NCBI RefSeq assembly: GCF_025753855.1
Contig: NZ_JAOWPT010000023.1
Span: forward strand, 1-34,223
DNA from: Mesorhizobium sp. ZC-5
GTDB taxonomy: Bacteria; Pseudomonadota; Alphaproteobacteria; Rhizobiales; Rhizobiaceae
DNA length: 34,223 nucleotides
Direction of reading: 5' to 3'
Part shown: positions 1 to 33,770 of the stretch, piece after piece
Numbering within the stretch: the stretch's first letter is position 1
How the letters are laid out: the number at the start of each line of letters is the position of its first letter
Notes under the pieces: generated by a model
What the model saw: the letters and a program-made list of their open reading frames with translations, nothing else
The model's database searches: none
Told to the model about the DNA's origin: nothing
Translations under genes and position numbers: made by a program

Positions 1-20
1 AAGCACGAAAGGCCAGCCCT

Positions 21-221
21 GGCAGATCAGCCTTTCCAGCGACCAGATCGATCAACTTCAACGCCGGCTGCAACGGACCAGGCGATCAAAGAAAGGTGCA
101 TCATGAAGCATTCGCGGACGCCAAGATGACCACCGCGCTGCTCGACCGCCTCACCCATCACTGCGAGATCGCCGAGACTGGCAACGAATCCTGGCGCTTC
201 AAGAGCCGCTCTCAAAGCTGA
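21..221 (+). pseudogene. istB: IS21-family istB 3' remnant
   Basis: Codons 99-221 read a typical end of the IS21 helper ATPase IstB: a [12 protein letters not shown] stretch, then [12 protein letters not shown] and a TGA stop at 219-221. Upstream of about codon 99 the frame stays open but no longer resembles IstB, so the gene is internally damaged and also cut by the window edge. IstB is the AAA+ partner of the IstA transposase. The fragment cannot be functional and marks the right half of an old IS21 insertion. Confidence 0.7.
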
Positions 222-309
222 AGTCCGAAAGCCAATTAGTCGCGCCCGATCAGGCTGTGCAACCCCGACCAGCTTCGCGTGATCGGGCGCTTACCGGCGT
301 GCCCTTCAA

Positions 310-372
310 CACCCCAATACCGGGGTCCCGTTTGCGCGAAAAACCAGGGTCCCGATTCCGTGGTCATTGACA
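310..372 (+). repeat. IS21-type terminal repeats
   Basis: Two copies of a GGGGTCCCG / AGGGTCCCG block, each followed by a short AT-richer spacer, end at a CATTGACA-like tip. Multiple terminal repeats of this kind are typical of IS21-family ends, and this one lies about 90 bases after the istB stop, as expected for the right end. Confidence 0.5.
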
Positions 373-461
373 AACGGATGCTCTGACCATGGCTTGGCAA
401 GCTGAGTCTGTCGGTTCGAGGCTGGCAATCGTTGGCGGTTTTGGGACAGAGGCATAGATAT

Positions 462-477
462 TGTCAGATCCAAGACA
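462..477 (+). promoter_or_regulatory. NifA upstream activator sequence
   Basis: The sequence TGT-CAGATCCAAG-ACA fits the NifA binding site TGT-N10-ACA exactly. Its centre lies about 75 bases upstream of the -24 element of the sigma-54 promoter at 545-560, and so roughly 100 bases from the expected start, the usual distance for NifA activators. TGT-N10-ACA alone occurs often by chance; the spacing to a consensus -24/-12 promoter is what makes it convincing. Confidence 0.7.
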
Positions 478-544
478 CGCTGCCGGCTGGGCAAAGGCCC
501 CGATTTTCAAAGCTTATTCAGGAGCTTGCAGAGCGAGCCAAGGC

Positions 545-560
545 TGGCACGGCATTTGCG
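545..560 (+). promoter_or_regulatory. sigma-54 (-24/-12) promoter
   Basis: TGGCACGGCATTTGCG matches the RpoN consensus TGGCACG-N4-TTGC in full, with the invariant GG and GC ten bases apart (546-547 and 558-559). Transcription should start near 571 and run into a leader of about 200 bases ahead of the ORF at 771. With the NifA site at 462-477 this predicts expression under low oxygen in nodules. I see no other gene between 372 and 770; the short ORFs there lack ribosome binding sites and family likeness. Confidence 0.8.
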
Positions 561-770
561 CTGGAGTGTAGTAACACTCGTGAATGCCACAGCGCCAAAC
601 CGGATTACTGCAATTTCACACGACGAGTGCTGGTGCATTGGTCTGGTTAACAAAAACAGCCCCAAGACGTGTGGGTCGCGACCTCTCGCAGATGACCGCA
701 GTATAAAAATATACCGCGACGTTTTGTCGGTAAATTCCTCGTTATCTACATGTAAGAAGGAATTTCGCTT

Positions 771-944
771 ATGTCTTTAGAAAAAGAAAACCGGTTTTCC
801 GACGGCTCATTTTACGCATCTGTCCATGGCCACACCGGCCCCGGTCAAGTTTCACAAACCAAAGATGTGACTGGCACCGGCGCAGCAAAATTAATGCGAT
901 GTCGCCCACGACGACGTTACACAGATTTCGGACCGCCTCGATAA
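771..944 (+). CDS. small protein of unknown function (57 aa)
   Basis: This is the first ORF after the NifA/sigma-54 promoter. It starts at an ATG with a good ribosome binding site (AGAAGGA about eight bases upstream) and ends in TAA at 942-944. The product is polar, rich in Gly, Ser and Thr in the first half, with an Arg-rich tail (RCRPRRR) near residues 43-49. I recognise no family, signal peptide or membrane segment. The tail may result from a frameshift, because a second frame stays open from 899 onward. It could be a true nodule-expressed small protein, a leader, or the broken start of a longer gene. Confidence 0.35.
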   Translation: MSLEKENRFSDGSFYASVHGHTGPGQVSQTKDVTGTGAAKLMRCRPRRRYTDFGPPR

Positions 945-1020
945 CGAAGTCGGATCCAAATACCCAGCCGTTTTCGCATAGTATGGTAGCGCGCAACTTC
1001 ATCATAAGAGAGTACCAGCG

Positions 1021-1989
1021 ATGTCAACCAAGCTGCTTTACCTGTCGAATTCTGATATCCAAGACTTGCAAATTACACCTCGCGAGGCACGCGAGGCAGT
1101 TCTTGGAGCCTTTCGCGACAACGCTTCTGGCCGCAACGTCGGCTTGCCGAAATCGTTTATCACCATCGGTCCGAGTTCCTGGCTCATCTCGATGAGCTCG
1201 GCATCCGAAGGCGACGGTATCGCAACAGTGAAATGCGTGGCCGTTGTTCCAGTCGAAGGGACACAAACAAGGCCGGTAGTAAACGGCTTGGTCTGTGTGA
1301 GCGACTACAAATCGGGAGTGCCCATCGCAGTTCTCGATGGCAATTCGATTACGCTAATAAGGACAGCGGCGATGTCCGCAGCGGCGGCGATCTATCTCGC
1401 TCCTGAGGCATCCGCAACGATTGGCTTGATCGGCTGCGGCCTGCAGGCGTTTAGCCATCTTGATGCGTTTGTCGATCTGTTTCCGTCGCTACGCAGGATC
1501 TATCTCTTCAGTCGAAACGTCCGCTCAGCCGAGAGGATCGCAACTGTCGCTTCCGAAAAACAGCTAGATCCAATCATCGCACACAATCCTGATCAGCTGT
1601 TGAGCGAAAGCGAGATCGTGGTCTCTATGATTCCGAGTTCACCTGGATTGAAACCATTTCTGGACGCTCGATCTCTACCGTGTTCGGCGTTCGCCTCGGC
1701 TGTGGATGGAGGCAGGAGCTGGCGGCCGGAAACGCTCACTGCTTTCGACAGACTTATCACAGACAGTCTGGAGCAAGATACATCGCCGGTTGACGCATCT
1801 GGAAGTTATGTTGAGGGTGTGAGATTTCAGGACGATCTTGTGCATCTTGCTTCTGGCTCGTCTCGGCCTCCTGTTCCAATCAGAGCCTTTTTCGGCTTCC
1901 GAGGTCTCGGGATCGCCGATCTGGCTTTGGCCGGACTAGCTCTCCGTAAAGCCCGTGCTTTTGGGGTGGGAACGATTCTGCCGCGATGA
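1021..1989 (+). CDS. ornithine cyclodeaminase / mu-crystallin family protein
   Basis: The 322-residue protein has the normal length of this family. It shows the nucleotide-binding loop GLIGCGLQA near residues 135-143, the conserved Lys of VKCVAV (residue 71), the Arg of TLIRTAAMSA (residue 114), and the typical C-terminal segment GIADLALAGLAL. Members are NAD(P)-dependent: ornithine cyclodeaminase makes proline from ornithine, while relatives reduce imino acids or build amino-acid conjugates. The substrate cannot be told from sequence. AAGAGAG stands upstream of the ATG. The gene is 77 bases after the small ORF and on the same strand, so it probably belongs to the NifA/sigma-54 transcript. 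Confidence 0.85.
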   Translation: MSTKLLYLSNSDIQDLQITPREAREAVLGAFRDNASGRNVGLPKSFITIGPSSWLISMSSASEGDGIATVKCVAVVPVEGTQTRPVVNGLVCVSDYKSGVPIAVLDGNSITLIRTAAMSAAAAIYLAPEASATIGLIGCGLQAFSHLDAFVDLFPSLRRIYLFSRNVRSAERIATVASEKQLDPIIAHNPDQLLSESEIVVSMIPSSPGLKPFLDARSLPCSAFASAVDGGRSWRPETLTAFDRLITDSLEQDTSPVDASGSYVEGVRFQDDLVHLASGSSRPPVPIRAFFGFRGLGIADLALAGLALRKARAFGVGTILPR

Positions 1990-2121
1990 GACATGTTACT
2001 GGCCTGTCTTATTCATGAGCATGATTGCGTGGATTAGGCGTAGGGAACGAGCGCAGATGTCGAGGCGCCTTTTTCACCGCGGGTGCGTCTGAACTTGGTG
2101 AAGGATGGATGTCTCGGGTAA

Positions 2122-2250
2122 ATGGGGCTCGATACCCCGCCGTTCACGGCCCTGCTGGCTGCAGCTGATCGCGAGCGAGCAGAACAAGCAGGGTTTTGGG
2201 AGGCGGCGGCGAAGGCCAGCCGGATCGGTGACGCGGGCAACACAGCTTGA
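2122..2250 (+). other. short open stretch between two genes, unknown
   Basis: An ATG-started frame of 42 codons (ending QAGFWEAAAKASRIG...) shows GC-rich, protein-like codon use but has no clear ribosome binding site and no family I recognise. It may be the 3' scrap of a lost gene. The rest of 1990-2267 shows nothing but the ribosome binding site of the next gene. Confidence 0.2.
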
Positions 2251-2267
2251 GAGGAGGAAGGAACAAG

Positions 2268-3071
2268 ATGAGCGACCCCGTCCAATTCTGGAATGATTGC
2301 GGTGTGGAATTTGCTAGGACTGCTCGCGATCCGAATTCTTTTTTCGCTCGACGAGCTGCTTTCGTCGCGGAGTTCGTATTGCGTAATACCTCGCCAGGTC
2401 GAATGCTAGATATCGGGTGCGGAACAGGCCAGCTGTGTCTTGATTTGGGGAGACGTGGATTTGACGTACACGGAGCTGATCTGTCGTCAGTGCAAATCGA
2501 AATTGCGATCCAAGCAGCGCGCGGAGTCCTCGACGCCCCGGAGGAGCGCTTTCAGGTGTGCACAGCTGACTCTTTGCCGTTTGAAGGACGCTTTGACCTC
2601 ATTGCCGCTATCGGCGTCTTGCCGTATGTTCAGGATCAACCTGCTTTTATTCAGCGCACACTCTCACTCTTGAAGCCGACCGGCATGTTCGTCGCTTCGT
2701 ACACGAACCCCGCTAGCCTGTTTACATTGGTGGCGGTGACTCGCCACATCCTGTCGTTTCGGCCGAAACGAGTCTGGGCCTTAACGCTCCGAAATCTGGT
2801 GCGAACAGGTTTATTGGGCGGTAGTTGTGTCGATATTCGGACGGCACGTCAGTGCCGAAGCGTGGCAGCGCTGGATCAACTGTGCTGCCAGCTCGGATTA
2901 ACAATTGAGGGTGAGTTCGATCTTTACAACGTCGACTGGGGTTTGCTCGATCGATGCCCTTTTGAAAGGGGACGTTTCGGTAGACTACTGTCCCGACACT
3001 TCGGGTGGACCCATATTGCCGCTTATCGGCTGGGACCGCAAGGGACGGCTAAATTAGGGCCCTGGTCATGA
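2268..3071 (+). CDS. class I SAM-dependent methyltransferase
   Basis: The start is the ATG at 2268, because GAGGAGGAAGG lies just upstream; a TTG at 2247 would be in frame but overlaps that site. The 267-residue protein carries the SAM-binding motif I MLDIGCGTGQL near residues 49-59, an acidic motif II (VHGADLS), and a motif IV/V region FDLIAAIGVLPYVQ. The C-terminal third is not recognisable and may bind the substrate. It follows the cyclodeaminase-like gene on the same strand after 278 bases and may be read from the same nodule-type promoter. The methyl acceptor is unknown. Confidence 0.8.
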   Translation: MSDPVQFWNDCGVEFARTARDPNSFFARRAAFVAEFVLRNTSPGRMLDIGCGTGQLCLDLGRRGFDVHGADLSSVQIEIAIQAARGVLDAPEERFQVCTADSLPFEGRFDLIAAIGVLPYVQDQPAFIQRTLSLLKPTGMFVASYTNPASLFTLVAVTRHILSFRPKRVWALTLRNLVRTGLLGGSCVDIRTARQCRSVAALDQLCCQLGLTIEGEFDLYNVDWGLLDRCPFERGRFGRLLSRHFGWTHIAAYRLGPQGTAKLGPWS

Positions 3072-3084
3072 AGTCTGTTTCACT

Positions 3085-3605
3085 CTATGCATTGCCGCGA
3101 GAGTTTGCAGGCAGAATCGTCGGGTGCTGGCCATGACGCCTGCCGCAGAACTGCTGCCAAAGGTCGGGATCTCGCCGGAGATGATGCACGGGCTCCCGTC
3201 CGAGCTGTCCGGTGGCCAGCGCGAGCGGCTCTGCATTGCGCGTGGGCCGGCCGCCGGGCCCTCGCTGATCATTGCCGACGAGGCGGTATCGCCGTTGACG
3301 TCTCCGTTCAGGCACAAATCCTAAACCCGCTGATGTATCTGCAGGAGCAGGTGGGCATCGCCTTCATCTTCATGGCGCATAATCTTAGCGTCGTGGAGCA
3401 TATCGGCAATCGCGTCGCGGTGTCGCGGTCATCATCTAGGGCAGATTGTGCAGTTAGCGCCCTGCGAGGCGCTCTTCGCCAAGCCGGTCCACCCTGCAGG
3501 GAGGCGCCGCCCGCGGCGGCACCAGTGCCCAATCCCAGACGGCCGCGTCGTGGCCTGTCATGTGCGCGCTTCTGCAGCGGAACTTCGGGGCCAGCCTGCT
3601 AGCGC
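3085..3605 (+). pseudogene. oligopeptide/dipeptide ABC transporter ATPase (OppF/DppF type), broken
   Basis: In several frames one can read the second half of an Opp/Dpp-type ATPase: the signature [14 protein letters not shown] (near 3200), Walker [11 protein letters not shown] (near 3270), then [17 protein letters not shown] and [15 protein letters not shown], and in a third frame [16 protein letters not shown], the usual C-terminal region. The N-terminal half with Walker A is missing and at least two frameshifts break the rest. The intact relative energises uptake of peptides or amino-acid derivatives at the inner membrane. It is the first member of a decayed operon with the CapA-like and DadA-like genes that follow. 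Confidence 0.75.
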
Positions 3606-3715
3606 CGTCCTAGGCTATGTCAGAGGCTCTTTCACCCGATGCAGCATCCCGATTGCACCGCTGACACGAACACTGAACCAATCTCAAATGCAGCGAAAAG
3701 AAGAGCAAGAGGACT

Positions 3716-5126
3716 ATGGAAGAATATACACGCGGGATCGGTTCTTGTCTTGACCAACCGGGTGAAAACTATGATACGGTCGGGTCGATTGCAACGGGCG
3801 TCGCTGATGGCTTAACGATGGTAGCAGTTGGCGACCTGATCGTGTCCCGAGCGCCGAAGGCCATCATCCCGGCCTCGATGACATCATCAAGATCCTTCGT
3901 AATGCCGATGTCACGTTCGGCAACATGGAGACCCTGATCTTCGACGTCCTATCGTTCAAAGGAAGCCCGGAGGCTGAACACGGCGGCGCTTATCACGTCA
4001 GCCTGCCGGAACTCGGGTCTGATTTGAAAGCGATGGGTTTCAACAAACATCGTCGGTCGTGCAAACAACCATACGCTTGATTGGGGCCTTCGAGGCATGC
4101 GCGTGACGAGTCGGGTGCTCGATGAGAGTGGTATCGTCCATGCAGGTTCCGGCGAGAATCTTGCTCAAGCCGGCGCCGCTCGCTTTTTGGAAGCTGCACG
4201 CGGTCGCGTGGGTTGGTGTCATTTGCTGCAACGTTCGCGCCAATGTCTCGTGCGTGCGATCCCGCTGGCGAGGCGCCAGGCAGACCTGGACTCAACCCCC
4301 CTTCGTTTGGCGGAAAGCATCGTGGTCCCGCCGGGATGCTCGAAAACTTGAGACAAGTGCGCGATGCGTTGCCCGGTTTCAAGGCCGGCGGGAAGGATCC
4401 AAGCCGGGTCGTGCTCCAGTGGGGGTACATATAAAGCAGGCGACAAGCCCGGTTACAGCTACGAAGCAAACCCGCGCGATGTCGCCGACATCCTACGAAA
4501 TGTTCGCCGGGTAAGCAGTTCTCTGACTTCTGCATTGTCACCAACCACCGTCACGAGCCCAATTGGAGCCACAAAGTGAGCCAGGAACCGCCGGATTACC
4601 AGCAATCCTTTGCGCGCAAGATGATCGATGCTGGGGCGGACGCATATGTAGGACACGGGCCGCATCTTCCGCGAGGCATCGAGATCTATAAGGGCCGCCC
4701 GATCTTTTATAGCTTGGGAAATTTCTTCTATGACGACCTCCGGACGCCTGCGGGGCTGACATGTTCGAGGCCTACTGGAAGGGCCCGCGGGTCGACACAG
4801 ATGCCGAGGCGACGGTCGACGAGGCGGCAAAAGGATATCCTACGGCAGAAGGATTTGTAGGCACGCTATCCGGCCCAGTCTTCTATGAGAGTGTTGTCAC
4901 CGTCGGTCGGTTTGAGCAAAACAAGCTCGCTGAATTGCGACTTTATCCTATCGAGCTCGGGCATTCGAAGAGATTTGCCAATAGGGGCATCCCGCGTCTG
5001 GTTACCGGGCCAAAGGCAAAGGCCATTCTGGACCGTCTACAAAAGCTGTCGAAGCCATTTGGAACTGACGTAGCCATCGAGAACGACGTTGGAGTCATCG
5101 GACCGTGGCCCGGCTCGTCACTATGA
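3716..5126 (+). pseudogene. CapA/YwtB-type metallophosphatase, multiply frameshifted
   Basis: Read across several frames, this is a near-complete PGA_cap-family protein: VAVGDLIVSRA near 3820, ADVTFGNMETL near 3910, a broken ANNHTLDWGL near 4065, [17 protein letters not shown] near 4620-4660, then [19 protein letters not shown] near 4680-4735. The last open frame runs to 5126. Frame changes occur at least near 3850, 4050, 4200, 4300, 4430, 4510 and 4760. Family members are calcineurin-like enzymes tied to poly-gamma-glutamate, and in rhizobia they can stand with peptide transporters and amino-acid oxidases. No function remains here. Confidence 0.75.
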
Positions 5127-6359: not shown

Positions 6360-7898
6360 CTAAGGCGACGCGCGAGCCATAGCATTCAACCGTTCTTGAT
6401 GCGCACGGCGCATATAAGCCTTCCACACGTCTGACTCGGATTTCCGCCAAGCGCTTGTCTCCTTCTCGCTTCCAAAGACGCCTATTGCTCTGCCTGATGG
6501 GCTGGTATTGACGTTGGCGATGCCGTAGTCGGATCCACGCGCCGACAGGAATGTTTCGGCTTCGCGCGGATCATTGGTGAAGATCGAGGACGAAACTTGC
6601 TGCGTAACGGTGTTGTGCAACTGAAGCATGGAATCGAGGTGGCGGTATTTTGTCACGTATAGGATCGGCGCGAAGGTCTCGTGTTCGACTGGCCCCTTCT
6701 GTGCGATGATTTCCACCATGGCCGGACGGACGTAGTAGCCATCCGCCGCCGCGTCGATAAGCACGCGTTCACCGCCATAAACCGTCGCACCTGCAGCTTT
6801 CGCAGATTGGAGTACGCTTTGCATGTTGCGATAGGCTGCGCCGTCGACCAATGGACCAACTAGCGTGCGGGCCTCAAGAGGATCGCCGATCGTGAGGGAA
6901 TCATACACACGCTTCAGGCGCGGTACGAATGTGTCATATACGCTCTCGTGAACGGATAGGCGACGCAGAGTTGTGTAGCGCTGGCCAGCTGTGCTGATTG
7001 CAGCGAGGGCAACAGCGCGCAGCGTCAGGTCGAGGTCGGCCGTGGGCGCAACAATTGCGGCATTGTTGCCGCCGAGGTCAAGAATCGCACGTGCGAAGCG
7101 TTTGGCAAGCCGCGGCCCAAAGGCAAGGCCCATTGCCTTGGAACCCGTAGCTGAGACCAATGCTACCTTTGGGTAGTCAACGAGGAGGTCGCCGACCTCG
7201 CGACCGCCAAATAGTACTGCCGAGAGGCTCTCTGGCGCCGCCCCGCCCTCTTGCTTAAAGCGCTTCAAGGCACGTTCAAGCAACGCCGCGGTGGCCAGCG
7301 CGGTTAACGGTGTCCTCTCCGACGGCTTCCACACGACGCTGTTGCCGCACACGAGAGCAAGTGCCGCATTCCACGCCCACACCAGCACTGGAGAACTGAA
7401 GTTTGAGATGATTCCGGTGACGCCGAGCGGATGCCAAGTTTCCGTTATCCGATCCTTGCCGCGCTCGGTCGCGATCGTCAGGCCACCGCACTGCCGAGAA
7501 AGTCGGAGCGCAAAGTCGCAGACCTCGATCGTTTGTTCGACTTCACCAAGGCTCTCCGAGGCGACTTTCCCAACTTCGATCGAGACCAGCCGGCTGAGGC
7601 TCTCCTTGTTGTTCTGCAATTCTTCGCCAAGCAGCCGTACCAACTCCCCCCGCTTCGGCGCGGGCACGAGTCTCCACGCGTGGAAAGCCGTATGCGCCGC
7701 TTCGATGATCGCGACCGCCTCCCCGGAGCTTGTTTGCTTGACGTGTCCGATGATCTGACCGGTTATAGGAGTATGCACCTCGAGCATCCCATCTTTGCAG
7801 TGGGGTCGGCCTACTCCGACTGCGGCGAGTAACCTGTCAACTTCACTGGAAAGATCGACATTGCGGATTGTGGTTTCCGCTTTCGTTGGATCGGACAT
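6360..7898 (-). CDS. ALDH7-type aldehyde dehydrogenase with altered catalytic residues
   Basis: The 512-residue ORF is full length for ALDH7, the aminoadipate-semialdehyde / piperideine-6-carboxylate dehydrogenase group, and aligns end to end: GVTGIIS...WAWNAALALVCGN, WKPSERTPLTALA, HETFAPILYV, SSIFTND and a C-terminal WKAYMRR. GGAGAG precedes the ATG. The key sites are changed: GQRCT is GQRYT (nucleophile Cys to Tyr), ELGGNN is DLGGNN (base Glu to Asp), FNFPV is FSSPV (oxyanion-hole Asn to Ser), FTGS is ATGS, and the Gly-rich GGEKHTGGG region is GSEKETSAW. By family knowledge it cannot act as a normal dehydrogenase. It is either a pseudoenzyme or a decayed gene that still lacks stops. Confidence 0.75.
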   Translation of the reverse strand: MSDPTKAETTIRNVDLSSEVDRLLAAVGVGRPHCKDGMLEVHTPITGQIIGHVKQTSSGEAVAIIEAAHTAFHAWRLVPAPKRGELVRLLGEELQNNKESLSRLVSIEVGKVASESLGEVEQTIEVCDFALRLSRQCGGLTIATERGKDRITETWHPLGVTGIISNFSSPVLVWAWNAALALVCGNSVVWKPSERTPLTALATAALLERALKRFKQEGGAAPESLSAVLFGGREVGDLLVDYPKVALVSATGSKAMGLAFGPRLAKRFARAILDLGGNNAAIVAPTADLDLTLRAVALAAISTAGQRYTTLRRLSVHESVYDTFVPRLKRVYDSLTIGDPLEARTLVGPLVDGAAYRNMQSVLQSAKAAGATVYGGERVLIDAAADGYYVRPAMVEIIAQKGPVEHETFAPILYVTKYRHLDSMLQLHNTVTQQVSSSIFTNDPREAETFLSARGSDYGIANVNTSPSGRAIGVFGSEKETSAWRKSESDVWKAYMRRAHQERLNAMARASP

Positions 7899-8080: not shown

Positions 8081-8534
8081 GGCAGCCTCCTCCCGAAGCA
8101 AGTGGTTCAGTGAACAATCCTCTCTCGGTCGGATCTCTAAGAGACCGTTTCGAAATTCGCTCCGGCGAGTCATATCATGGTGGTTTCGAGAACCGACGCA
8201 CAGCGGACGTTGGTCCGTGACCACCGGAAGCGCAGAAAACGCCTTCAGATGGCCGCCAGAGTAGAATTTCCAAACGGTTTCTAACCGCCTCTGGACGAAG
8301 AAGCTTCAAAACTTGTGCCAACAGCGCAGAGAAAGCCTCAAATCGATTTTCTATTATGATCGCATGGCCTAAATGAGAGGTAAGCGAAAACAGGCCGAAC
8401 ACTACTGTGTCGCGAAGTCAACAAAGCCGACAAGGGGTCATCCGCCACTAAGAAGTGACTTCCTGGGTCGTCGCGGTCGAGTTCAGCCATTCGGCTTCGA
8501 CCGGGTCACCGGAGGCGGTCCCCCGGTTCCCACA

Positions 8535-25712: not shown

Positions 25713-25975
25713 CAGCTTGGTCTCAGAGTTAACGCGGGTGCTGGCGTGGGAGGAGTATCGCGACGCCAATCCAGGCGGCCTTCTATATCTATTTTTGCAT
25801 GACCTTACCTGGAAAGGACGCGTACACCAGACGATACGCCAGATGCACTCCGCGGCGTGAAGGTGTTTGGCGATTTCGCCGGCGACACCTTCAACATCTT
25901 GGATCCAATCACCGGCCTAAAGCTGTTCGTCGCAACGATGGGCGCCTCGAACTACACCGACGCCCCAAACGGTAC
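25713..25975 (+). pseudogene. istA: IS21-family istA internal fragment
   Basis: The plus strand reads WEEYRDANPGG, then IRQMHSAA, a TGA, KVFGDFAGDTFNILDPITG and KLFVATMGASNYTDA, the region around the first Asp of IS21 transposases. It starts next to the IS66 duplication and ends at about 25970, inside the 3' end of the aspartate kinase gene on the other strand. Confidence 0.6.
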
Positions 25976-27052
25976 GCTAACTACTGCAGGATACATTTGT
26001 TCGTGGATTTGGCGCACCAGGGAAATGGCGCCGTCATAATCGCCGACCAAATGCACGAGCAACCCCGAAGAATCAAGTTCTGTCACCACATTGCTTAAGC
26101 CAATGAAAACCGGACCAATGTCCGCAAGCGAGACTAGTCGCTGGGCAAAATCGATGTCGCTTACAATACAAACCCTCACCCCGTGACTGTCCTCCAGGCG
26201 AAGGACGTTGATGTCATGTCTAGCAAGAAGGGCGCAAAGGCTGTCGCATTCTTCGAGGCTGGCGCATGAAAACACCGGGCTGTCGCGAGCCACGGTCACA
26301 GAACGGGCGTTGCCATGACCTGATACGATCGTGCCGGTGATGGCTCCGTCGCTGGTCAGCGATTTACAAATAATGGAAACCCTGTGCTTTTCGGCGTAAT
26401 GCACCCCCCTGTGGTGGAGAACCTTTGCGCCGTGTAGGGACATCTGTAGGATCGTCTGATAGGCAAGCTCCGGAATCAGTTGTGCTCCTGGGACAAGATA
26501 AGGGTCTGCCGTATAGACGCCCGGAACATCTGAGTAGATTTCGCAAGCGTGCTCTCCTAACATGGAGGCTATTACGATAGCTGTCAGGTCGGAGCTGTTT
26601 CTGCCCAGAAACGTTAACCTGCCGGACTGATCGATTGCCTGGGCGCCAGCGGCAACGATCACATCATGCTCCAGCAATGCTGCCATAATTTGCTTAGGAT
26701 CTACGCTTTCTATTGACGCGCGACCGAAGTCCGAATTCGTACGTATTCCAAGGGAATAGCCGTTCAAAGACATGACCGGTATCCTCAGCCGGCTGATGGC
26801 AGCCTCCAAACAGCAGGCACTGATCATCTCTCCAGTTGCAAGTGCTGCATCAACGTTCGATGGTGATGCTTTCTTGTTGACGTTGAGCATCACCTCTTTC
26901 AGGTTGTCAGTTATTCCCGACATCGCGCTGACCACGGCAACGATTTTGCCTTCGCCAGTTGCTAGTCGGTCGGCTATGTGCCCAGCAACTCGATGGTAGT
27001 CTTCAGTATGTCGAAAAGAGGAGCCCCCGAATTTCAGAACCGTCGCGTTCAT
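25952..27052 (-). CDS. aspartate kinase, monofunctional
   Basis: A 366-residue aspartokinase: VLKFGGSSF at residues 5-13 (normally KFGGTS), TGEMISACCL, LGRNSSDLTA (normally GRGGSDLTA) and the nucleotide-site segment YSDVPGVYTADPYLVPGA. The rest forms an ACT-type regulatory part. It makes aspartyl phosphate, the first step to aspartate semialdehyde. The last codons (about FGASV) read into a reversed istA fragment, so the natural C-terminus has been replaced. It follows the diaminobutyrate aminotransferase gene by 188 bases on the same strand. Dedicated aspartokinases with EctB-type enzymes are known from ectoine clusters, where they bypass lysine and threonine feedback. Confidence 0.85.
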   Translation of the reverse strand: MNATVLKFGGSSFRHTEDYHRVAGHIADRLATGEGKIVAVVSAMSGITDNLKEVMLNVNKKASPSNVDAALATGEMISACCLEAAISRLRIPVMSLNGYSLGIRTNSDFGRASIESVDPKQIMAALLEHDVIVAAGAQAIDQSGRLTFLGRNSSDLTAIVIASMLGEHACEIYSDVPGVYTADPYLVPGAQLIPELAYQTILQMSLHGAKVLHHRGVHYAEKHRVSIICKSLTSDGAITGTIVSGHGNARSVTVARDSPVFSCASLEECDSLCALLARHDINVLRLEDSHGVRVCIVSDIDFAQRLVSLADIGPVFIGLSNVVTELDSSGLLVHLVGDYDGAISLVRQIHEQMYPAVVSVPFGASV

Positions 27053-27105
27053 GTTCCACCAATCACGTCGTAAGCAATTTGCAAGCTATGCGATGAGAGA
27101 TGCGT

Positions 27106-27204
27106 TCAACGCGCAGCCCCCACTCTACGCCTCAAGGGGTTCAGTCGGTCACGTCGCAGTGTGATCCTGTAGCATCTTCGATTTCGGCAGCCATTAATTG
27201 ACAT
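27106..27204 (-). CDS. possible small ORF between aminotransferase and kinase genes
   Basis: An ATG with a strong purine tract just upstream (GAGGGGGG, then ATC) opens a frame of 32 codons for a basic peptide rich in Arg (MSINGCRNRRC...). An alternative ATG ten bases later gives a 17-residue acidic peptide, MAAEIEDATGSHCDVTD. Neither has relatives I recognise. The tract could be a leftover from a lost gene, or this could be a leader peptide for the kinase. Confidence 0.2.
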   Translation of the reverse strand: MSINGCRNRRCYRITLRRDRLNPLRRRVGAAR

Positions 27205-27240
27205 GATCCCCCCTCTGTAAGCACCACAGCGTGGATCCGC

Positions 27241-28515
27241 TTAGACGCTTGCATGCACAGAACGGTCCAAAATGTTGAGACCGCGTTGAAGCGTCTGCCC
27301 GTCGATCGTCAAAGGAGGAAGGAGCTTGATAACCTGGTGCTCGGCGCCGCATCGCTCTACCACAAGTCCATCTTCAAAGGCCCTACGGACGATTTTCTCC
27401 GCCAATTGGCCTGTATTACAATCGAGCCCGAGCATCATGCCCCTTCCGCGAACGGAAAGGTTATGATCTCCGCTACTTTGAGCAACCTGGTGAAGGCGCC
27501 CGCTCAAAATGCGTCCTGTTTCCGCAACGCCATCAGACAGCTTTTCACTAGTCCAATATTTTCGCAACGCAGCAGTCCCAGTCACTAGCGCAAGGTTGTT
27601 GCCTCTGAAAGTTCCATTGTGTTCGCCCGGCTGCCAAACGTCTATTTCAGGTTTTAGCAGCAAAAGGGACAGTGGCAGTCCACAGCCGCTGAGGGACTTC
27701 GACAAAACAATCATATCCGGAGATAAATCGGCAAACTCGAAACTGAAGAAACTACCTGTTCGTCCGCAACCCGCCTGAATGTCATCAACAATCAGGAGAA
27801 TGCCGTTCGTTCTGCAAAGTCGCTCGAGCGACTGAAGCCAATTCTTGCTCGCAGTGTTGATGCCCCCCTCGCCTTGGACAGTTTCTAGAATGATGGCTGC
27901 GGGTAGGTCGACACCACTGCTTGCATCAGCAAGTAGCCTCGCCAGATATTCCGAAGTGTCGTGATCGGCTCCCCAATACCCATCGTAAGGCATGAACACT
28001 GCGCCGGCTAGAGGAAGGCCTGCTGCGTCTCGGCAGTGCCGATTACCCGTTACGGCAAGCGCGCCCAAGCTCACTCCATGAAAGCCGTTGGTGAATGAAA
28101 TTATAGTTTGCCGACCAGTGGCCTTGCGTGCGAGCTTTAAAGCCGCTTCCACGGCATTGGCGCCGGTGGGGCCGGGGAACTGAAATTTGTACGCTAGGCC
28201 ACGCGGATGAAGTATTGTCGCGTCAAAATTCTCCATAAACTCTCTTTTTGCAGAGGTAGCCATGTCAAGACCATGAATAATACCGCGTAATTCAAGGTAT
28301 TGCCTTGCGGCATTTAGCAAATCGGGATCGTTATGGCCATAGTTGAGGACGCCCGCGCCGGAGAGAAAATCGATGAACTCGAAGCCACTCTCATCCTCGA
28401 GAATGGCTCCCGCAGCCTTCCTGAACACAACAGGATACGATCGCGAATAAGACCGCACGTTTGACTCGAGAGTTTCGAAGGCAAATAGCGAGTTGGAGGT
28501 ACTCTCTTGAAGCAC
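27241..28515 (-). CDS. EctB-type diaminobutyrate--2-oxoglutarate aminotransferase
   Basis: I choose the GTG at 28515: GAGGA stands seven bases upstream, the length becomes 424 residues, and the PLP Lys of VLSKSLSG falls at residue 273, as in EctB. The ORF is open to 28794 only because it runs into an IS5 remnant. Features: FETLESNVRSYSRSYPVVF, FIDFLSGAGVLNYGHNDP, FPGPTGANAVEAALKLAR, ETVQGEGGIN, DDIQAGCGRTGSFFSFE, PGEHNGTFRGNN. The enzyme converts aspartate semialdehyde and glutamate to 2,4-diaminobutyrate. The aspartate kinase gene follows; no acetyltransferase (EctA) or ectoine synthase (EctC) gene is present. Confidence 0.87.
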   Translation of the reverse strand: MLQESTSNSLFAFETLESNVRSYSRSYPVVFRKAAGAILEDESGFEFIDFLSGAGVLNYGHNDPDLLNAARQYLELRGIIHGLDMATSAKREFMENFDATILHPRGLAYKFQFPGPTGANAVEAALKLARKATGRQTIISFTNGFHGVSLGALAVTGNRHCRDAAGLPLAGAVFMPYDGYWGADHDTSEYLARLLADASSGVDLPAAIILETVQGEGGINTASKNWLQSLERLCRTNGILLIVDDIQAGCGRTGSFFSFEFADLSPDMIVLSKSLSGCGLPLSLLLLKPEIDVWQPGEHNGTFRGNNLALVTGTAALRKYWTSEKLSDGVAETGRILSGRLHQVAQSSGDHNLSVRGRGMMLGLDCNTGQLAEKIVRRAFEDGLVVERCGAEHQVIKLLPPLTIDGQTLQRGLNILDRSVHASV

Positions 28516-28649
28516 AATCGTTTCCTCATCTAAATGGTGGCGCCATAGCATCCCAATCGAAGCATCCCAATCGAAATTCTGATGGCTTCGCAGTTTTAGA
28601 CGGTAACCTCGACTCGTGCGCCTACCAAGGATGGTAGTATCTTTCAGTC

Positions 28650-29215
28650 GCGACGAGAGAGAGGCGTCGACGATACGCCAGCGATCGGCAAAGGCCATGG
28701 CGATGGCTGGAACCTTGGACATGTCAGTGGTTCCAGCGATGAGCTTCGGCAGCCGCACCAGATTGTAGGCGGCGGCGCTGAGGGTGAAGCCCATCCGACG
28801 CGGTTCCGGCGGCGCAACTTGGTTTGGCGCTGACCGGCGACCGTCTTGATCCAGCCGAACGCCTCTTCAATGCGCTTACGAATACGCTGACTGACAGCAT
28901 AGCCGCTATGCCGGGTGGTGCGCCCGTCGATGGCCGAACTATGGCCGCTGGTGTTCTGCGCCACATGCGGCGTCACCTTCATCGAACGCAGTTCGTTGAC
29001 GAAGTCCTCCGCATCGTAGGCCTTGTCGGCACCGAGCGTGATCGCCTGCGGCCGGTCGGCGCGGGGCTCGATCATGTGCAGTGCCACTCGCTCGGCATGT
29101 CCGTCGGCCAGCGTCAGGCAGGCATCGACCAAAAGGCCGTGGCGGTTCTCCATCAGCCCATGCCCGATGAAACACAGCTTGGTTTCCTTGCCCCGCACAC
29201 GGACGTTATCCGCCA
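28650..29215 (-). pseudogene. IS5-family transposase, C-terminal part
   Basis: The minus strand reads RGKETKLCFIGHGLMENRHGLLVDA, ITLGADKAYDAEDFVNELR, TAIDGRTTRHSGY-like sequence, QRIRKRIEEAFGWIKTV, then after one lost base near 28800 FTLSAAAYNLVRLPKLIAG. The N-terminal half is missing, cut by the IS21 remnant at about 29215. Its 3' side lies just upstream of the aminotransferase gene and may contribute promoter sequence. Confidence 0.75.
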
Positions 29216-30776: not shown

Positions 30777-30796
30777 GAATTATAGTTCTATAATTC
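30777..30796. repeat. perfect inverted repeat at the 3' end of the luxR-type gene
   Basis: GAATTATAG-TT-CTATAATTC is a 9-base perfect inverted repeat overlapping the last codons and stop of the regulator gene. It could be a weak terminator stem or an operator. It lacks a GC-rich stem and T-run of an ordinary terminator. Confidence 0.35.
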
Positions 30797-31625
30797 CGTT
30801 GTTGACCGCCTTTATAGCGGCAACCGTCCTGCTGGCGACATCAAGTTTTCGCATTACGTTTTTTATGTGAAAGTTTACAGTGTTATCAGATATATCTAGA
30901 ATTTTCCCTATCTCCCACGACGTTTTTCCTCGTGCTACCCACGAAATACATTCCTTTTCTCTTGGAGAGAGGCCAAAAGGGCCCTTGGCGCAACTCGAAA
31001 GCACGAACTCGGCGATCCTCAGATGGAAGTATAAGGCAACAAGTTCCAAGTAGGTGACTGCTATATTCCGGAAATCCTGGTCATATACTTGCGCAAAACT
31101 TACAACTGCAAAGCTGCCATCGGGGCGGTGCAATGGAATGCTGATGCCTGACCTTAGGCCGAACGTCGCAGCCTCGTCGAAAACGCGTCGTTCGTCTTCA
31201 GTCGTACTTGCATCGTTGTACACCTCGCTCCAACGAAAGGTGCCTGCCCGCTTTCGGCTCGTCTTAATAATGGGGTCTATCTTGTCGTAGCCCATCTCGA
31301 AATAGCGCTCCTGCCATTCGTCAGGATAATTCAGCATGGCCACAGGATCGCACTTGACGGGCTTCAAAAATCTTTGGTTGCCAGTAAGATAGCTATATGC
31401 AATCCACGGGCAATCAAACTTCAGGGCAAAAGCACATACTAGGTCGAACAACTTCTCGGGTTGAGCAACACCATCAGCCTGGTCGAGAAATCGGCCGAAC
31501 TCGACGGCAAATGCATCTTTGGCTGCCGCTCGCAAATTCGTCGAGGGGACTAAAGAAAACTGGTCGGAAACGCCGATTTCCAGCCTTCGAAGCTGAGAGA
31601 CTGCAGTCATCCGCGGGCTCGCCAT
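30780..31625 (-). CDS. LuxR-family regulator with AHL-binding domain
   Basis: A 281-residue protein. The N-terminal two thirds form an autoinducer-binding domain (WIAYSYLT, then YFEMGYDKIDPII, FRWSEV and FGLRSGISIPLHRPDG), keeping the Trp, Tyr, Asp-Pro, Trp and Gly that line the acyl-homoserine-lactone pocket in LuxR/TraR. The C-terminus is a LuxR helix-turn-helix, GLSPREKECISWVARGKTSW...ISDNTVNFHIKNVMRKL. It is about 40 residues longer than TraR at the N-terminus; an ATG five codons later is possible. No luxI-type synthase gene is in the window. It lies upstream of the diaminobutyrate genes on the same strand, with IS5/IS21 debris between. Confidence 0.87.
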   Translation of the reverse strand: MASPRMTAVSQLRRLEIGVSDQFSLVPSTNLRAAAKDAFAVEFGRFLDQADGVAQPEKLFDLVCAFALKFDCPWIAYSYLTGNQRFLKPVKCDPVAMLNYPDEWQERYFEMGYDKIDPIIKTSRKRAGTFRWSEVYNDASTTEDERRVFDEAATFGLRSGISIPLHRPDGSFAVVSFAQVYDQDFRNIAVTYLELVALYFHLRIAEFVLSSCAKGPFGLSPREKECISWVARGKTSWEIGKILDISDNTVNFHIKNVMRKLDVASRTVAAIKAVNNGIIEL

Positions 31626-31907
31626 AGTCTCTGCTCTGCAGCCACTTGCGCCTGGTGCGCCAATCTGCCGGTTTAAGGCGCCGTCTTCGCAGACGGACAG
31701 CGCTGAAGCTCTACCCCACCCTCGCGTTGCATAAAGTTATTTTGTGTAAAAGTTATTTTTCAAAAGCTTTTGTGAGCGTAGAGAAATTGCAAAAAAGCTT
31801 GGATGTAAGATATTATTCCAGTTGGACACCTTCTGTAATCGGTCAACGACCTCCTCGGCGGTTTCAGCGGTCCTCGTCGTCTGCGGGTTTCACGCTTCTG
31901 TTCGTGG
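31626..31907. other. region upstream of the luxR-type gene
   Basis: It holds no gene I can support. At 31761-31772 stands the palindrome CAAAAGCTTTTG in an AT-rich setting, a candidate regulator site about 135 bases before the start. A small hairpin CCGTC-TTCGCA-GACGG lies at 31681-31696. No conserved 18-base lux/tra box is evident. Confidence 0.3.
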
Positions 31908-32467
31908 TCACCGCTGTGGGTGCCACATTCTGGGCGCTTCGATGGTGGGTTTGAATGCTGCCAGCGCGAACGCGTAATCTTTGGATCGCAAGGTGTCCAA
32001 CGCATTCATTCTGGCCCACACGCTCTCCGCATTCTCACGACGAGCGTAGCTATTCATGTATGCGCCATCATCGAAAACATGGACCATGAATACGCTCACA
32101 TGCAGCGCTTGCAGGCGTTGTAGATCCCACTCCTTCATTCCTACAAGCGTCGTGAAAATCCGGATGCCATGGCCTCTGGCGTAAGCGTGCTCGACCATTT
32201 CGGTGCAATCCGGATTGAACCAAGGCTCGGAGTACCGGAAAAACCAATGTCGACGGAAGTTGGTACGCGCGCCAGACATCCCTTGAAATCTTCAAGCCGA
32301 AGACGGTTCGCATGAGAGACTGCTCTTTGCCGATGGGCGAACTTGTCCTGCGGGCAACAGGAACATCCGACGATGCAACCTGTGGTCGTCGTTATTTCCA
32401 AAATCCTGCCGCCTGGGACGACAGAGATCATCGGATATGAATCCACTTTTCCGGTGCTCTTGGCCAC
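31908..32467 (-). pseudogene. radical SAM protein, frameshifted and truncated
   Basis: From the ATG at 32467 the frame reads GGRILEITTTTGCIVGCSCCPQDKF with the CX3CX2C cluster motif near residues 31-38, then SVDIGFSG. Near 32235 one base is lost, and the next frame continues YSEPWFNPDCTEMVEHAYARG and IRIFTTLVGMKEWDLQRL, to a stop at 31908. The usual C-terminal SPASM-type cysteines are absent, so the gene is also short. Radical SAM enzymes of this type modify peptides or small molecules. It lies between acdS and the regulator gene on the same strand. Confidence 0.7.
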
Positions 32468-32756
32468 TCTCTAATTGCTAACAGAAAAAGTCCACTCGGA
32501 TAGAACGTTGCTTCAGCCACCAACAGATATTGTATCATCGCCCCTGCGATATCGGTCTGTACAAGATTCATCCTGCAATACTCAAAATAATATTGTCCAC
32601 AAACTTGGGATTATTCAGCAAAAATCCATCGATCAAAACATTTCCGCATAACTCCGTCAACGTCGCGATGGTTGATCATCCGCCGACTCCCTCGGTTGCC
32701 GGGCGGCCCTCGAAAGAAAGCATCGGCAGGACGGCGCAATCGCAATCTGTCGAGCG
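32468..32756. other. intergenic region between radical SAM pseudogene and acdS
   Basis: This 289-base stretch is AT-rich in its middle (near 32520-32640) and shows no gene, no NifA site and no -24/-12 promoter that I could find. Confidence 0.4.
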
Positions 32757-33770
32757 TCAGCCGCTGCGGAAGGTATAGCTGTAGCCGTTGACCGCCGGCG
32801 CGCCGCCGAGATGCGCGTAGAGGACCCTCGATCCCTCTGGAAAGAAGCCTTTCTGAATGAGATCAATCATCCCTTGCATCGATTTTCCCTCATAGACGGG
32901 ATCGGTAATTATCCCCTCGAGCCGCGCGCACAGGCGGATGGCCTCCTTGGTTTCTTCGGACGGAATGCCATAACACGGGTACGCATACTCCTCGAACAGC
33001 ACCACGTCGTCTTCGACGATTTCCGTTTCGAGATCGACGAGCTTCGCTGTATGTTGGGCAATGTTTAGCACCTGCGCCTTGGTTTTGGTGGGGGTGGCAG
33101 AGGCATCGACACCGATCACGTTGCACTGTCGACCGTCCTCGGCGAATCCGACGAGCATGCCGGCATGCGTTGAGCCTGTGACCGTGCAAACAACGATGTA
33201 GTCGAAGGCAAAGCCAAGCTGTTTCTCCTGGGCGCGCACCTCTTCCGCGAACCCCACATAGCCGAGGCCGCCCTTTTCGTGAACAGACGCCCCGGCGGGT
33301 ATCGCATAGGGTCTGCCGCCCCTTGCCTTGACCTCATAGAGCGCTTTTTCCCAACTGCGGCGGATGCCGATGTCAAAGCCCTCGTCGACCAGGCGCAGCT
33401 CTGCTCCCATGATGCGGCTCAAAAGAATGTTGCCGACCCGATCGTAGACGGCATCCTCATGTGGAACCCAGCTCTCCTGAACCAGGAGGCATTTCATGCC
33501 GATCTTGGCGGCGACCGCGGCGACCATCCGCGTGTGGTTTGACTGCACGCCGCCGATGGAGACCAACGTATCGGCATTTGACGCGATGGCGTCGGGGATG
33601 ATGTATTCGAGCTTGCGCAGCTTGTTTCCGCCAAATGCGAGACCGGAATTGCAGTCCTCGCGTTTGGCGTAGATTTCCACCTTGTCGCCTAGATGCTTGC
33701 CAAGGCGGTCGAGCTTCTCGATGGGCGTTGGTCCAAAGGTGAGCGGATAGCGTTCGAATTTTTTCAGCAT
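32757..33770 (-). CDS. acdS: 1-aminocyclopropane-1-carboxylate (ACC) deaminase
   Basis: A complete 337-residue PLP enzyme. The residues known to separate ACC deaminase from D-cysteine desulfhydrase are present: PLP Lys at 50 in FGGNKLRK, Ser at 77 in GGVQSNHT, Tyr293-Glu294 in [10 protein letters not shown] and Leu321 in LYAHLGG. GGAGAG precedes the ATG. It splits ACC, the ethylene precursor of plants, into ammonia and 2-oxobutyrate in the cytoplasm, lowers ethylene in roots and nodules, and is common on rhizobial symbiosis islands. In Mesorhizobium loti acdS is NifA-controlled, but I see no NifA/sigma-54 site in the 330 bases upstream here. Confidence 0.96.

Follow-up and report, generated by a model that had tools for sequence, protein, structure and literature searches.

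A predicted NifA/sigma-54 promoter of nifH type ahead of an ornithine cyclodeaminase-family gene in Mesorhizobium sp. ZC-5

The rhizopine mos locus of Sinorhizobium meliloti, whose genes include mosA (DapA-type) and mosB (DegT-type), is a mosaic that places accessory metabolism under symbiotic control. For Mesorhizobium loti R7A, PMC3538637 names "nifH frag, msi321-320" and "nifQ frag, msi332-331", whose lacZ fusions are less active in a nifA2 mutant (in a table of that paper, 319.8 units in the wild type and 11.7 in the mutant for msi321::lacZ); in the msi321-320 locus, a nifH-type promoter and a nifH fragment stand ahead of a methyltransferase gene, likewise a case of promoter capture. Here we analyzed a stretch of 34,223 nucleotides from Mesorhizobium sp. 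ZC-5 (NZ_JAOWPT010000023.1, positions 1 to 34,223, referred to as the window; "own" denotes the 6.34-Mb genome of this strain), in which a gene of the ornithine cyclodeaminase/mu-crystallin family (OCD) and a methyltransferase gene follow a predicted NifA/sigma-54 promoter (Table 1). Promoter capture is of a known kind, as in msi321, and the gene pair here is different: compared with msi321-320, the window promoter appears to belong to the nifH type of Bradyrhizobium and has kept no nifH fragment, and OCD comes first among the genes. With the mos locus the window shares the idea of accessory metabolism under symbiotic control, whereas the chemistry differs, and no mos-type genes were recognized among those of its open reading frames (ORFs), only some of the total, that were scanned with profiles. 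The comparisons below make it likely that a captured nifH-type promoter directs the production, dependent on NifA and specific to nodules, of a metabolite that derives from an amino acid and is perhaps cyclic and methylated. In the literature, judged largely from titles, we found no report of this locus or of NifA control of an OCD gene.

Table 1. Features of the window discussed in the text
Feature	Position	Strand	Remarks
Degenerate second NifA site TGGCGGTTTTGGGACA	433-448	+	TGG for TGT; 112 bp before the -24 site
NifA upstream activating sequence TGT-N10-ACA, TGTCAGATCCAAGACA	462-477	+	Exact match
Weak integration host factor (IHF)-like site	516-528	+	7/9 positions of the consensus; overlaps the TCAG-AGCTT block common to nifH promoters
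Sigma-54 -24/-12 promoter TGGCACGGCATTTGC	545-559	+	Exact over TGGCACG-N4-TTGC; predicted start near 571
Leader start resembling nifH leader	560-600	+	GTAGTAACACT-CGTGAATGCC versus GCAGCAACACTGAGTAAGGGC
57-amino-acid ORF	771-944	+	Overlies the oxidase relic, in frame
Decayed 3' end of flavin adenine dinucleotide (FAD) amino-acid oxidase (DAO) gene plus DAO-OCD spacer	791-1020	+	140/222 bases identical to Bradyrhizobium sp. 190, z 10.2
OCD-family gene	1021-1989	+	322 amino acids
IS1380-family remnant	2053-2225	not assigned	Between OCD and methyltransferase genes
Class I S-adenosylmethionine (SAM)-dependent methyltransferase gene	2268-3071	+	267 amino acids; co-occurs with OCD in Bradyrhizobium
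L-piperidine-6-carboxylate dehydrogenase (AmaB)-like gene	6360-7898	-	69% identical to gene near OCD in Bradyrhizobium sp. 190
Second nifH-type sigma-54 promoter	8305-8320	-	A at -12; ahead of the AmaB-like gene
NifA site of second promoter, TGTTGACTTCGCGACA	8408-8423	-

An earlier note on this DNA had placed an upstream activating sequence (UAS) for NifA, a -24/-12 element and a predicted start near 571 ahead of OCD, and the positions and spacing of the two elements were confirmed in the sequence. The -24/-12 element carries the invariant GG and GC, and the 67 bp between it and the exact UAS are a usable spacing; the degenerate second site lies close to where the nifH and OCD promoters of Bradyrhizobium have their second UAS. 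Single motifs on their own are weak evidence, the window holding 7 occurrences of TGT-N10-ACA with 3.6 expected and 13 of the -24/-12 pattern at up to two mismatches with 14.25 expected (exact only ahead of OCD), and the exact -24/-12 pattern occurring 13 times in the own genome versus 6 times for the reversed pattern. The combined pattern of UAS and -24/-12 element, with a gap of 50 to 80 bp and relaxed around the window site itself, was found five times in the own genome and not once in the reversed control; one of the five (C10:66006), with the off-consensus core TGGCGAGGCGCTTGC, may be due to chance. A consensus scan of window positions 200 to 3300 gave no match to a sigma-70 promoter and no forward terminator-like site.

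When the sequences are anchored on the -24 element, a UAS block, a leader block like GCAGCAACACTGAGT and, 20 to 30 bp before the -24, a TCAG-AGCTT block recur in the window promoter and in three nifH promoters of Bradyrhizobium. In local (Smith-Waterman) alignments of positions 430 to 771 with 19 promoter regions (300 shuffles each, motifs unmasked), z scores were 9.3, 9.1 and 8.3 for these nifH promoters, 8.4 for the promoter of an ATP-grasp gene near OCD in Bradyrhizobium WSM3983 and 7.1 for a site ahead of a redoxin-domain gene on own contig C22 (C22:3160), while the remaining 14, the own nifH promoter included, ranged from -0.7 to 2.0. The regions upstream of OCD in Bradyrhizobium genomes G585 and G430 scored 11.8 and 8.2, respectively (150 shuffles). 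After masking of both UASs and of the -24/-12 element (31 targets, 300 shuffles), the highest scores were those of the G585 OCD upstream region (z 8.1) and nifH promoter L031 (z 5.2), reached by none of the 300 shuffles in either case; the G430 OCD upstream region (3.8), C22 (3.6), nifH promoter L027 (3.4) and a nifD promoter (3.1) were each reached by 1 shuffle in 300, and the WSM3983 ATP-grasp promoter and nifH promoter L034 stood at 2.6 and 1.8. By these alignments, the homology of the window promoter to the G585 OCD promoter appears strong, and the nifH likeness of the window promoter itself seems to be partly motif-driven. The G585 and G430 OCD promoters in turn aligned with the WSM3983 nifH promoter at z 9.5 and 10.7, and a blastn search with the WSM3983 nifH promoter-and-gene region matched both of them, as well as WSM3983 7497 to 7635 and own C22, so that descent from nifH via G585 and G430 looks well supported. 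Descent from the strain's own nifH promoter was rejected (z 0.1 unmasked, -0.7 masked). A 5' nifH coding fragment in the style of msi321 or mos was also sought, and the window gave no NifH or nifH match. On C22 (L020, 1567 to 3278), a nifH-type promoter and leader precede a 398-amino-acid redoxin-domain gene, with additional nifH-like DNA at 1567 to 1681.

OCD orthologs of 59 to 79% identity were found in 12 of 265 Bradyrhizobium genomes; in the own family (395 genomes), three genomes besides the own one reached E 1e-60, at 39 to 42% identity. At most 5 to 9 first-look candidates were scored per genome in these searches and in those for the methyltransferase below, and low-identity copies may be missed. 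A sigma-54 site scoring at least 11/12 lay 70 to 209 bp before the OCD start in six of the 12 Bradyrhizobium orthologs (12 in G430, G404 and G471; 11 in G585, G509 and G581), where about 0.05 were expected; such sites occurred in 22 of 5200 shuffled upstream regions and in 0 of 13 antisense strands (binomial P 5e-12). Two exact UASs were present in G585, at 112 and 83 bp, and one in G581, at 104 bp; G430 has two one-mismatch UASs at 113 and 83 bp, G404 and G471 have one-mismatch sites, and G509 has none. In the OCD tree, G585 and G430 were the window's nearest rows by path. Comparison with relatives, which the earlier note had proposed as a check, thus gave a divided answer, with the sigma-54 site kept in half of the orthologs and lacking in the other half, and exact UASs in two only; together with the nifH-type homology, the kept sites nevertheless uphold the NifA/sigma-54 promoter as a prediction. 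OCD lay at most about 432 kb from nifH in six genomes with both genes on one contig of 7.7 to 9.9 Mb, a limit chosen after the distances were known, and 195 kb from it on a 736-kb contig of G509. The presence of nifH was rejected as a discriminator of genomes with OCD (12/12 versus 23/30 others; Fisher P 0.16, not significant).

The OCD protein, predicted earlier to be ornithine cyclodeaminase-like, is a member of PF02423 (100.8 bits versus a cut-off of 24), and its structural model has the ornithine cyclodeaminase/mu-crystallin family fold. K71, R114 and D229, which we take to be the conserved active-site Lys, Arg and Asp of the family, are invariant in 13/13 sequences, and the ratio of nonsynonymous to synonymous substitution rates (dN/dS) is 0.08 to 0.22 versus all 12 orthologs; on these comparisons, the gene is judged to be intact and under purifying selection. 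Among solved structures, a pyrroline-2-carboxylate reductase is nearest in sequence, identity to 6t3e (Delta1-pyrroline-2-carboxylate reductase) and SbnB (4m54) being 22 to 25%. Fold scores versus 25 OCD-family entries ranged from 25.4 to 30.6 with the top ones nearly tied, and the ranks say little on substrate, the model being of middling confidence (predicted local distance difference test, pLDDT, below 50 for residues 235 to 287). Because of this near-tie and because none of the listed NCBIfam cut-offs was passed, any substrate assignment would be a guess. Two relatives have OCD in lysine/pipecolate-type clusters, Bradyrhizobium sp. 190 with DAO, HglS and AmaB nearby, and others have it beside exporters, ligases and peptidases, a multidrug and toxic compound extrusion (MATE) exporter or ATP-grasp gene lying near other OCD copies. 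With such neighbors, proline supply to bacteroids, suggested in the earlier note, is possible and not favored.

Two OCD neighborhoods deserve description. In G609 (L056, 7395 to 9262), the MATE exporter gene near OCD lies 419 bp behind a sigma-54 site with A at -12 and a UAS. In G430 (L053, 2032 to 12608), OCD, an M19 dipeptidase, an aspartate kinase and a diaminobutyrate aminotransferase are encoded on one strand, and relatives of the latter two are found at window 25952 to 28794. Loss of a diaminobutyrate aminotransferase raises bacteroid pipecolic acid, according to PMC10228743, which shows that pipecolic-type compounds occur in bacteroids and says nothing on the window locus.

Orthologs of the methyltransferase (67 to 75% identity) were found in four of the 265 Bradyrhizobium genomes, each of them one of the 12 that carry OCD (P 2.5e-6 with phylogeny disregarded), and lie roughly 7 to 107 kb from it; among 390 own-family genomes, the own one alone gave a match. 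This co-occurrence argues for including the methyltransferase in the unit, which the earlier note had done with a "perhaps". Two copies lie behind DNA like the promoter, leader and coding start of nifH. In G585, this DNA includes two exact UASs in a promoter of nifH type and the decayed remains of a nifH fragment (protein level, z 32.8); the G590 copy has a 12/12 site without exact UAS and nifH-like DNA (nucleotide level only, z 9.6), the G404 copy an 11/12 site without exact UAS, and upstream of the G613 copy no such sigma-54 site was found. In the window, the methyltransferase gene is without a nifH-type promoter or fragment of its own and follows OCD after the IS1380 remnant; a nifH remnant before it was looked for and none was found (z -0.7). 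Its matches to solved structures are generic.

Part of the DNA between promoter and OCD derives from an oxidase gene. Its match in sp. 190 is the oxidase 3' end plus the spacer directly upstream of OCD, positions 792 to 949 also align with the oxidase 3' end of G446 (98/156 bases, z 8.5), and two Bradyrhizobium clusters have DAO ahead of OCD. Shorter is the similarity to the region upstream of OCD in G585 (z 4.9), which takes in the spacer just before OCD. The 57-amino-acid ORF, read in the earlier note as the first gene product, has a good ribosome-binding site from which its translation is possible. Residues 9 to 30 match the oxidase in the oxidase's own frame (5770 - 4591 is divisible by 3), profile scans gave no protein family, and no plasmid relative was found at E <=1. 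Judged from these alignments, the ORF is an oxidase relic inside the leader, not a conserved protein, and as a gene product it had to be given up. A peptide gene or precursor of a ribosomally synthesized and posttranslationally modified peptide (RiPP) was rejected on the absence of a family and of a plasmid relative and on the in-frame overlap with the oxidase 3' end, as was a nifD start (MSLEKEN versus MSLEYEN of the own NifD), for which the alignment across the start was weak. The DAO-OCD ... HglS-AmaB cluster of sp. 190 (L002), whose OCD is 68% identical to the one of the window and whose DAO the relic matches, looks catabolic and has no sigma-54 site of at least 10 in its 13-kb locus, whereas the window has an oxidase relic and a NifA-type OCD promoter.

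The AmaB-like gene of the window has a putative NifA-type promoter of its own, which aligned (100 shuffles) with the own nifH promoter at z 6.5, the promoter of a nifH fragment on own contig C25 at 3.1 and an S. meliloti one at 4.3. A pattern with A at -12, written from the own nifH promoter and this site and hence matching both by construction, had these two matches in the own genome, no third and none in the control. The reading frame is open, and the protein differs from both relatives by Cys to Tyr, Asn to Ser and Glu to Asp exchanges at what we presume to be the expected catalytic positions. An A at -12 is also reported for the M. loti nifH promoter in PMC3538637.

Starting from the observed sites, their homology and partial conservation, the co-occurrence and the relic, we infer expression, co-transcription, substrate, product and export as follows. 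A nifH-type, two-UAS NifA/sigma-54 promoter of the Bradyrhizobium lineage would have been captured before OCD and then have travelled with the gene. In micro-oxic nodules, NifA on the exact UAS would activate sigma-54 polymerase at the -24/-12 element, and the message would run from near 571 through the dead oxidase remnant, the 57-codon frame included, to be translated at OCD and, since no forward terminator-like site lies between, probably at the methyltransferase too. OCD would reduce or cyclise an amino-acid-derived imine, most likely a pipecolate- or proline-like one, and the methyltransferase would decorate the OCD product or a downstream intermediate; synthesis of the product would be confined to the time of nitrogen fixation, with possible release from the cell. 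On this footing, an accessory enzyme pair would be linked to nitrogen-fixing nodules by more than a matching motif, and nifH promoter copies ahead of non-nif genes, of which more cases are seen here, form a pattern that can be searched systematically for nodule-made metabolites. More tentatively, the pair might make a new nodule-specific cyclic methylated amino acid (e.g., a pipecolate or proline derivative), having come under the control of duplicated nifH promoters on more than one occasion, in Bradyrhizobium and Mesorhizobium-like symbionts; if true, duplication of the nifH promoter would offer symbiosis islands a general way of recruiting secondary metabolism to the fixing nodule.

Several findings weigh against a captured nifH promoter serving OCD and the methyltransferase. 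With motifs masked, z fell to 3.4 and 1.8 for two of the three nifH promoters and stood at 3.1 for a nifD promoter, and the WSM3983 nifH-region search did not match the window at E 1e-3, the window's own nifH homology thus appearing to rest on Smith-Waterman scores. In the OCD tree, the window, G430 and G585 do not form one clade, and supported branches require at least two changes of the nifH-type label. Six orthologs (G590, WSM3983, G609, G613, sp. 190 and G446) are without a site of at least 11/12 within 600 bp of OCD, and among the six with such a site, only G585 and G581 have an exact UAS. The IS1380 remnant splits OCD from the methyltransferase gene, OCD failed to reach the cut-off of any of the 13 NCBIfam models listed, true ornithine/lysine cyclodeaminase, P2C/Pyr2C reductase and SbnB among them (best, 99 of 266 bits), and the OCD model is about equally near the SbnB, pyrroline-2-carboxylate reductase and alanine dehydrogenase folds. 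Might the UAS and -24/-12 match then be chance or inactive, with OCD read from an unseen promoter? Each motif is common alone and half of the orthologs lack a strong site, but the five-to-none count for the combined motif, the homology to the OCD promoter of G585 that persists after motif masking and a site conservation far above shuffles make this very improbable.

The promoter could also be real and the locus a decaying passenger, with OCD as the one gene still whole in what was a lysine/pipecolate catabolic module, its expression in nodules yielding no important product. We consider this unlikely: the oxidase reduced to a relic, the AmaB-like catalytic substitutions and the insertion sequence (IS) fragments and broken genes around all fit such decay, whereas the intact OCD gene with its low dN/dS versus every ortholog, the recurrence of the sigma-54 site before six of 12 orthologs and the co-occurring methyltransferase do not. 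That OCD supplies bacteroids with proline, or with pipecolate as an osmolyte, from ornithine or lysine, the methyltransferase being unrelated, would agree with family membership and with the nearest solved structure by sequence; it is rather unlikely in view of the 13 NCBIfam models passed by none, the methyltransferase co-occurrence and the ligases, exporters and peptidases that neighbor OCD in several relatives. Finally, OCD might be an SbnB/CmnK-like biosynthetic dehydrogenase that helps to form a 2,3-diaminopropionate-like diamino acid as a building block, not a cyclic amino acid, which the near-tie of the 25 fold scores and a score far under the SbnB cut-off render quite unlikely. NifA-dependent synthesis of an amino-acid-derived metabolite from the captured promoter is therefore the reading that we retain.

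Around the locus, window 1 to 378 holds recombinase- and IS21 IstB-like DNA, which stops about 55 bp 5' of the promoter. Beyond the methyltransferase gene, positions 3087 to 5126 hold fragments of an oligopeptide ATP-binding cassette (ABC) transporter ATPase gene, followed by short ORFs; a CapA/PgsA-like broken gene read by eye at 3716 to 5126 was dropped, neither of the two ORFs scanned having a Pfam match. At 30780 to 33770 lie genes for a TraR-like LuxR regulator and 1-aminocyclopropane-1-carboxylate (ACC) deaminase (acdS), and the surroundings of the latter match the nif region of Mesorhizobium amorphae pM0123d. Because in pM0123d about 7 kb, including a TlpA-type gene, separate acdS from nifX, and because the window ends in acdS while C22 holds the redoxin-domain gene and nifH, the right end of the window is probably close to C22. 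Curated cut-offs were passed by a single NifA and a single NifH in the own genome.

Arrangements comparable to msi321-320 or mos were seen elsewhere. On own contig C25 (L040, 6445 to 12213), a nifH fragment with a nifH-type promoter is followed by a methyltransferase-domain gene, an arrangement that resembles msi321-320; D-Ala-D-Ala-ligase-type and L-amino-acid-ligase-type ATP-grasp genes lie upstream. On pSymA of S. meliloti (L074 and L075), a nifH-type site with a UAS and a short nifH match stand, in ml46, before an ATP-grasp gene, of L-amino-acid-ligase type in L074, and a nifH-fragment ORF precedes dapA, directly before which there is no site of at least 10; RCAM1750 is similar, and the two loci are possible counterparts of the mos locus. 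On pSymA of S. meliloti KH35c (L010, 13425 to 16168), lysine-2,3-aminomutase-type radical SAM and D-Ala-D-Ala-ligase-type genes lie behind a sigma-54 site with a UAS.
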